IMG/VR virus record: IMGVR_UViG_3300009130_000118
Coordinates: 1-25,948 of that record
From: a virus
Length of the DNA: 25,948 nucleotides
Direction: 5' to 3' (one strand)
The notes under the pieces were generated by a model, which ran no database searches, was not told where the DNA came from, and saw only the letters and a program-made list of their open reading frames with translations. Numbering within the stretch: the stretch's first letter is position 1; each line of letters starts with the position of its first letter. This document shows, in pieces, positions 206 through 2,463 of the stretch. The translations under genes and the position numbers were made by a program.

Positions 206-688
206 TTAAAAGTTACCGTCTGCAACTTGCATACATTGCAAATTAAGACCATTTCTCCACATATCAACTACTTGATTCCTATCATCAAATACATATTTAA
301 CATCATAGCGAGGTGCTACTTCTTTGTTATATATATCATATTTAACGTAACAATCTTTTCGATAATCACCTTTTCCACGCAGTATAAGCTCCCAACCTTT
401 AATTGGTGCAGGTGCATCTTGTCTATCAAAGACATATTTATTGATCCACCATTTTGTTAGGTCATAAGCATCATTGTGCTTACTGCGTTTACTTGAAAAG
501 CTGACATTCTCTCTTGCTGACAGAAAAACAATATAACATTCTAATTGTTTAGCTGTATTTAACAACAAGTCTATAACAGGTTGATTAGGTTTATCTTCAT
601 CAGCCTTGATATATTCAAAAGGACTTCTATTTTTAAAATTCATTAAAGCTATAGTCCCATCCACGTCACATATTATTGCTCGCTTCAT
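206..688 (-). CDS. Polynucleotide kinase 3'-phosphatase-type HAD hydrolase (phosphatase domain only)
   Basis: This 160-residue protein matches the C-terminal phosphatase domain of T4 Pnkp-like enzymes, which remove 3'-phosphates from nucleic-acid ends during nick or RNA repair. HAD motif I is CDVDGT at residues 7-12, with D8 the likely nucleophile and D10 the acid/base. Motif II is LSARE at 56-60. A basic segment GKGDYRKDCYVK spans 105-116. The acidic motif FDDRNQVVDMWR at 134-145 would bind Mg2+, followed by the family's usual C-terminal QVADGNF. The P-loop kinase domain of T4 Pnkp (about 300 aa in total) is absent. Family membership is secure; the substrate (DNA, RNA or a nucleotide) is not shown by the sequence. 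The ATG lies just downstream of a GGAGG on the minus strand and 15 nt after the preceding gene, so it belongs to the leftward operon. Confidence 0.88.
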   Translation of the reverse strand: MKRAIICDVDGTIALMNFKNRSPFEYIKADEDKPNQPVIDLLLNTAKQLECYIVFLSARENVSFSSKRSKHNDAYDLTKWWINKYVFDRQDAPAPIKGWELILRGKGDYRKDCYVKYDIYNKEVAPRYDVKYVFDDRNQVVDMWRNGLNLQCMQVADGNF

Positions 689-1052: not shown

Positions 1053-1080
1053 AAAAAAACAATTAATAACAATATATTAA
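1053..1080 (-). terminator. Possible rho-independent terminator at the 3' end of the large RNA
   Basis: On the minus strand a 6-bp AT-only stem TTAATA/TATTAA (1080-1063, 6-nt loop) is followed after TTG by seven T residues (1059-1053). A second perfect 7-bp hairpin, TTATCAA/TTGATAA (1101-1081), lies directly upstream. The weak stem makes this a poor terminator. It may instead be a processing site 5' of the tmRNA-like RNA, whose first base is 21 nt downstream. Confidence 0.35.
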
Positions 1081-2110
1081 TTATCAAAACAACCTTGATA
1101 AAAAATAAACTCTTATTAATCCCTACTAAAGCAGCACGTGTCTGCCGTAAAACCTTGACTTTTGAGTCCATAGGTCCTCCTTTCCTAAGTTATTATTTAT
1201 TTAGGAAATTATTCAATAGGTTGAGACTAAGCCTATCAATTGAGTGTCTTTGGAGATATTATCTGTTTTAGCAGTTCCCCTCTTTGTCCACTCGTATTTG
1301 CATACAAGTATCACTCAAAGCTCAGCAGTTTAAGACCGCCACTCTTGTCGGTTTGGTTATCTCAACAGGTACTAAGTTCTTAGGAAGATAGCGAGTCCTC
1401 AAAAGATCTGTTCACCATTAAATACACGCCCTTGTGAGGCTAATGTACACTCTATTCACCGTAGTGTAGAGTATTAGAGCTCTTTGCTCCAAACCGTGCT
1501 ATGAATTTTACTTTTACGTTATCATTTTATCTTTTGGTTATTATGATTAAGTGGAAACGAGGAATTGTTGCTTTGAGACCATAACATTGCTGCTTACTTG
1601 TCTTTTGAACTAGTAAATACAACACTCAATAGCTACATAATATGGCTGGTGACCATAAATACATGTTGTTTCAGGCATTCTAACTCTGTCTTAAGTTTCC
1701 CTAAGAACAGCAACCTTCACAATGGAGAACAGCCTACCTACCACAGGTTAGCTTAAACTCCTTACTCTTTTTATCTATAAAGTGTCACCACTCGCAATCC
1801 AATTTCCCACATTGGATATTACCCACCTAAGCCTCTCAGCTGTCGCCCATGAGACGAAGACAGGTAACGATAGAGCTTGCATTCTAAGACCATTACTGGC
1901 GCTACTAGGACTGTTATTCCATAATCCTTTCACTTTGGGTGTATTACTACACTTATCCTTTTGACCGAAGTCACAGACACAATGCTGCCTGATTACCGAA
2001 GTAATTCTTTATCAACAAGGGATGGAACACACTACATACACCTCAAGTTATCAACTTGATTAGCGATGATTAGTCTTAAGAGTGTGAACTCATATGCTTG
2101 TTGAAATTTG

Positions 2111-2183
2111 TTGCGGGAGACAGATTCGAACTGCCAACCTATTGGTTATGAGCCAATCGAGGTACCAACTCCTCCATCCCGCA
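2111..2183 (-). tRNA. tRNA with CAT anticodon (Met elongator or Ile2)
   Basis: A full 73-nt cloverleaf is visible on the minus strand. The acceptor is TGCGGGA/TCCCGCA (2183-2177 with 2118-2112). The D arm is GAGG/CCTC with loop AGTTGGTA. The anticodon stem is ATTGG/CCAAT around loop CTCATAA, giving anticodon CAT. The variable loop has 5 nt, and the T arm is GGCAG/CTGTC with loop TTCGAAT. The discriminator is A (2111), and CCA is not encoded. It lacks the three G-C pairs in the anticodon stem that mark initiator tRNA. Because the phage is AT-rich and uses ATA heavily, a lysidine-modified Ile2 tRNA reading ATA is as plausible as elongator Met. It lies inside the large structured RNA candidate and would need RNase P and 3' processing to be released. 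Confidence 0.95.
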
Positions 2184-2463
2184 TTAAATCAAGTGGACGC
2201 TGCATGGATCCCAGGTACGGCCTGTTTCTCCTTTGCTACCTTAGCAGTGAGTAGTTACCTCAACATACTAGCCTCTATTTTGCATAGCCCGAGGTGGCTT
2301 GTCCACAGGTAGATAGAGATTAGTCCGAAGCTTCGCAAAATGGATAATAAAACAATTATTCGTTGCAACCCCTTCACGAGGTATGACTAATGCCCTAAAA
2401 ACACACACAAATACCACATGATTGCTACTGAATCACATGGTATATGTCTGGTATAAGTCCATA

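Follow-up and report, generated by a model that had tools for sequence, protein, structure and literature searches.

A probable GOLLD RNA beside a CCA-less tRNA-Met, a pseudoknotted element and a tmRNA-like RNA in an uncultured phage

What is encoded by a long stretch of phage DNA that is dense in hairpins and at first sight free of genes? The stretch analysed here (the window, 25,948 nt) is a 25.9-kb virus record whose plus strand carries terminase, P22-type portal and head protein genes, and whose RNA module lies on the minus strand; the phage is uncultured. A sequence-only reading had proposed a single 1.4-kb structured RNA at 1053-2443 on the minus strand, as a diverged GOLLD or ROOL RNA or a new class. 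In place of one RNA, this interval contains a GOLLD RNA of ~800 nt (~2011-1215), a tRNA, a gene and, distinct from GOLLD, a pseudoknotted element (2306-2193), with linkers between them. As had been claimed, it surrounds a tRNA and lies between a small gene and a tmRNA-like RNA. A scan of the window with all Rfam models gave three matches (GOLLD, tRNA and tmRNA), every one on the minus strand, where the order is 46-aa gene, pseudoknotted element, tRNA-Met, GOLLD, 43-aa gene and tmRNA-like RNA. The features, all on the minus strand, are as follows.

2464-2604: 46-aa protein gene (MSYLGLS...HWMF), first gene of the module, conserved in six other contigs
2446-2459: motif GACTTATACCAGAC, 3' of the 46-aa gene and before the pseudoknotted element, seen in the sequence
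2411-2443: terminator-like hairpin of 13 pairs, 3' of the 46-aa gene, from a terminator scan; kept in L087, L097 and L098
2193-2306: pseudoknotted pre-tRNA element with closing stem P1, hairpins P2 and P3 and long hairpin P5, from covariation across six loci
2110-2183: tRNA-Met (CAT), no CCA encoded, called by ARAGORN; Rfam tRNA 63.8 bits at 2183-2111
2013-2103: spacer closed by the pairing CAACAAG/CTTGTTG and peculiar to the window phage, from alignment and coordinates
1630-2011: probable GOLLD 5' domain, beginning at the UUCG hairpin 2007-1991, from a 13-sequence alignment
1215-1629: probable GOLLD 3' domain with A/U-rich linker (RF02032) and terminal hairpin 1237-1215 (from the sequence)
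1181-1208: 8-bp hairpin TTTCCTAA/TTAGGAAA between GOLLD and the 43-aa ORF, seen in the sequence; kept in L087 and L089
1040-1171: 43-aa ORF with a hydrophobic, membrane-type segment and GGAGG upstream, from sequence comparison
957-1032: tmRNA-like RNA of 76 nt, tRNA-like domain only; RF00023 55.7 bits (cut-off 47)

Identity and extent of the GOLLD RNA

The GOLLD model RF02032, which covers only the 3' half of the RNA and has a cut-off of 150 bits, matched 1629-1218 (minus strand) over its full length (model positions 1-416 of 416) with 185.6 bits and an E-value of 4.8e-51, and gave no matches in 14 control genomes. The Rfam model for ROOL, likewise a large phage RNA found near tRNAs and forming RNA cages, had no match in the window either at the gathering threshold or at E<5, and ROOL identity was rejected. 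Related GOLLD loci score 119-205 bits. Thus, of the earlier proposal, GOLLD membership stood, while ROOL and strong divergence did not: judged by its score, the window RNA is an ordinary member of the family. The A/U-rich linker aligns to a stretch of low conservation in RF02032 and differs in length between relatives.

As the Rfam model describes the 3' half only, the 5' half was sought in relatives. When the region was searched by BLASTN in 50,697 phage records, matches came at the tRNA-Met only, and relatives were therefore drawn from IMG/VR by means of DNA patterns and neighbouring genes: four came from phages that share the window's head protein (GOLLD in 4 of 50 such contigs), and many more from DNA patterns drawn from the first alignment (27 of 33 pattern-found contigs). 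Across 13 distinct phage GOLLDs, a 382-nt 5' domain aligned from the hairpin at 2007 onward, with a consensus of 71 pairs in which 96.5% of 922 pair cells were paired. Compensatory, two-sided change was seen in 34 of the 71 pairs, exceeding all 500 shuffles, and two-sided changes numbered 126, as against 41 for the shuffles and no more than 17 for the slid controls. In the slid controls 33-44% of cells stayed paired, a comparison that is partly favoured because the loci were in part pattern-found and the structure was taken from the same alignment, although the effect is large. Joining this 5' domain (2011-1630) to the Rfam match (1629-1218) gives a GOLLD of ~800 nt at about 2011-1215 on the minus strand; we regard both the family identity and this anatomy as very probable. 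The predicted fold of the 801-nt minus strand (-215 kcal/mol, z -2.0, equalled by 0 of 20 shuffles) compares with -173.8 kcal/mol and z -0.3 for the plus strand of the same segment; with the GOLLD model also matching the minus strand only, the dense minus-strand structure described earlier holds over most of 1053-2443.

The best-described relative, GOLLD env-38, lies downstream of a Met-tRNA, divides at position 420 into a 5' region (1-420) and a 3' region (421-833), and forms a hollow 14-mer cage with the linker inside (PMC12286853). The window RNA resembles it in having a full 3' domain with linker, a separate 5' domain, a length of ~800 nt, a phage origin, a position directly downstream of a tRNA-Met and relatives in metagenomes; the 5' domain was compared among the relatives collected here, and its likeness to env-38 rests on the published description. 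Unlike env-38, it is flanked by a mini-tmRNA on the 3' side and a pseudoknotted element on the 5' side, and it lacks one hairpin of the P21 region: in the RF02032 alignment 14 model positions (about 232-245) are absent, corresponding to one of two hairpins whose loops, by our own numbering, join the half-cages in env-38. The contact between two half-shells may therefore differ from that in env-38. Several relatives also seem to have a single hairpin here, in a comparison with uneven anchors.

GOLLD linkers sometimes contain tRNAs (PMC12286853). One of the relatives, in a 128.9-kb record (L120, G057), has a 205-bit GOLLD within a 14-tRNA array, and its linker contains a tRNA-Arg. Traits of the family are a 5' domain less conserved than the 3' domain and a homo-14-mer cage with conserved intermolecular bridges. 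In a Lactobacillus prophage, GOLLD accumulates in lytic growth but is dispensable for phage production (PMC7567579).

The pseudoknotted element and the tRNA-Met

Upstream of the tRNA-Met, the 114-nt element has a P2 loop that pairs with a downstream GAGG as a pseudoknot. Its single-sequence fold energy is ordinary (z -0.7), so the case for it is made by covariation in six sequences (the window, L087, L089, L097, L098 and L117). With a structure derived by hand, 141 of 141 cells were paired in five loci; over six loci and 28 pairs, 166 of 166 cells were paired and 15 pairs had changed on both sides, which none of 500 shuffles matched. The sixth copy, in L117, was found by a covariance model (E 8e-8) and aligned with it, which biases the alignment towards the nested stems of that model; the pseudoknot lies outside the model, and its arms in L117 read CUUG/CAAG in place of CCUC/GAGG. 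The element had no family match in Rfam 15 at E<5 and, searched alone by BLASTN, no match in 50,697 phage records, and a covariance-model search of 81 sources found it only in contigs that also have the tRNA-Met and GOLLD. As far as covariation can identify it, the element is a separate conserved RNA outside GOLLD that is not described in Rfam 15.

The 46-aa gene that opens the module changes mainly at synonymous sites (pS 0.64 versus pN 0.12 against L089). All six other contigs with this gene also have the element, the tRNA-Met and GOLLD, and a viral scan for the protein found no contigs beyond the same six. The motif GACTTATACCAGAC is identical in all six. It was also considered as a repeated phage promoter and rejected, being present as a single copy in the window with eight inexact matches versus 8.7 expected.

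Past the acceptor stem of the tRNA-Met the sequence reads CCCGCA-ACAAAT, so that CCA is not encoded; the tRNA-Met genes that abut GOLLD in relatives likewise have no encoded CCA. Where the GOLLD 5' start could be located downstream of a tRNA-Met, the distance between the two was 2, 6, 9, 79 or 100 nt, a 4-nt overlap, or in one case 317 nt. The 100-nt gap is that of the window, and its spacer is almost missing in L087, L089 and L097, where tRNA and GOLLD are 2-9 nt apart. In the remaining GOLLD loci a tRNA lies downstream, or there is none.

The 3' flank and the tmRNA-like RNA

The RNA at 1032-957 aligns to the two ends of RF00023, the tmRNA model, with 27 nt standing for 324 model positions. 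It shares with tmRNA an acceptor stem whose third pair is G-U, the D-loop GG-TTCGA, the T arm and a 3' end CUCCAC; a G-U at the third pair is the alanine identity element. It differs in lacking an mRNA-like domain, a tag frame and pseudoknots, its relatives and itself measuring 76-82 nt against a model of 374 positions, and ARAGORN called no tmRNA here. Relatives of 81-82 nt were found in L087 (4640-4720), L089 (866-946), L083 (1406-1486) and L095 (4018-4099), the last a phage contig in which GOLLD was not found; the window and three of these relatives score above the Rfam tmRNA cut-off. Across the set the acceptor stem and T arm are near constant and the core is variable. The marine phage Melnitz also has a tmRNA gene, but its tmRNA is complete, permuted and in two pieces, with a riboswitch (PMC9004378), whereas the window has the tRNA-like part only; the permuted tmRNA model scored 22.5 on the window RNA, below its cut-off of 47. 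If charged, such an RNA, having no tag template, could compete with host tmRNA. The possibility that its 3' end is an attachment-site copy of host ssrA was considered and gained no support, with just two exact matches, both in unrelated genomes.

Between GOLLD and the tmRNA-like RNA, the 43-aa ORF, with a good ribosome-binding site ahead of it, is present in the window, L087 and L089, with identities of 98% and 73% in the two relatives and pS of 0.18 and 0.40 versus pN of 0.01 and 0.18. In L083 the tmRNA-like RNA begins 15 nt past GOLLD. The hairpin at 1181-1208 is possibly a processing site.

Adjoining the RNA module is a gene with a HAD_PNKP (polynucleotide kinase-type phosphatase) domain (206-688, minus strand), and a gene resembling it apparently lies 3' of GOLLD in L115 and L117. 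A link to the module via RNA-end repair is possible.

Readings of the locus and possible routes of release

The placing of a CCA-less tRNA-Met directly before GOLLD and a tmRNA-like RNA after it suggests release by tRNA-processing enzymes. RNase Z acts on CCA-less precursors and RNase P at tRNA-like 5' ends. One longer transcript might span the module from the 46-aa gene to the tmRNA-like RNA; an RNase Z-type cut at the 3' end of the tRNA-Met would then set the 5' end of GOLLD, and an RNase P-type cut ahead of the tmRNA-like RNA would free its 3' side. The released RNA would fold as two domains, a 5' cap and a 3' ring, and its copies would self-assemble, as in env-38, to form a hollow cage that encloses the A/U-rich linker. 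By this homology, cage assembly in the window phage is probable. Co-transcription and processing, drawn from gene layout and enzyme specificity, we put forward tentatively, as having somewhat less than an even chance. Compared with the close packing seen in L097, the window has its 100-nt gap on one side and the 43-aa gene on the other.

GOLLD might instead be transcribed separately, between a promoter and a terminator of its own, the neighbours being stable-RNA genes gathered at one spot with no shared processing. Phage tRNA arrays often include a GOLLD (PMC6582537), as in the relative with 14 tRNAs around it, and roughly half of the GOLLD loci collected here lack any tRNA within 1.5 kb, as this account would have it. 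We nevertheless consider it rather unlikely, since a tRNA-Met that ends 2-9 nt before GOLLD, or overlaps it by 4 nt (L121, L123, L083, L142), leaves no space for a promoter, and a scan for promoters of the sigma-70 type and for terminators gave nothing convincing beside GOLLD beyond chance. The co-occurrence of element, tRNA-Met and GOLLD in all six contigs with the 46-aa gene would also fit a functional RNA of 1.1 kb, in which the element is a 5' extension of GOLLD and the tRNA-Met is embedded, much as the sequence-only reading had implied. That most loci have a GOLLD with the same 5' domain and no element, and that in L117 the element lies ~150-190 nt away from the tRNA, makes this very improbable.

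It is scarcely credible that the region encodes small proteins and that its hairpins are incidental. Two real small genes do flank it, and the frame 1782-1964 (plus strand) inside GOLLD is open in four close relatives, but several chance ORFs within GOLLD are broken by stops in relatives, compensatory changes follow the minus strand, and the conservation of 1782-1964 is explained by RNA covariation. In our view the protein-coding reading is refuted for 1215-2011 and 2193-2306. The claim that the interval has no gene fails at its low end, where the 43-aa ORF runs from 1171 to 1040.

Returning to release by tRNA-processing enzymes, its broadest form would be a single module in which a new pseudoknotted RNA class (2306-2193), the tRNA-Met, a GOLLD cage and a frame-less tmRNA are cut by these enzymes and act jointly on translation during infection. 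We regard this as unlikely.

Were the single module real, the cage might, for example, contain tRNAs or parts of ribosomes, with SmpB or stalled ribosomes occupied by the mini-tmRNA; tRNAs and ribosome parts are the candidates for GOLLD cargo in the literature. GOLLD itself was already known, and the newer parts are the pre-tRNA element and the mini-tmRNA. The ends of GOLLD are nearly fixed by the CCA-less tRNA and, in some relatives, by the tRNA-like RNA, which yields a concrete and cheap prediction on its release, and natural tRNA-GOLLD fusions with gaps of 0 to 100 nt offer a series in which ideas on the cargo may be probed.
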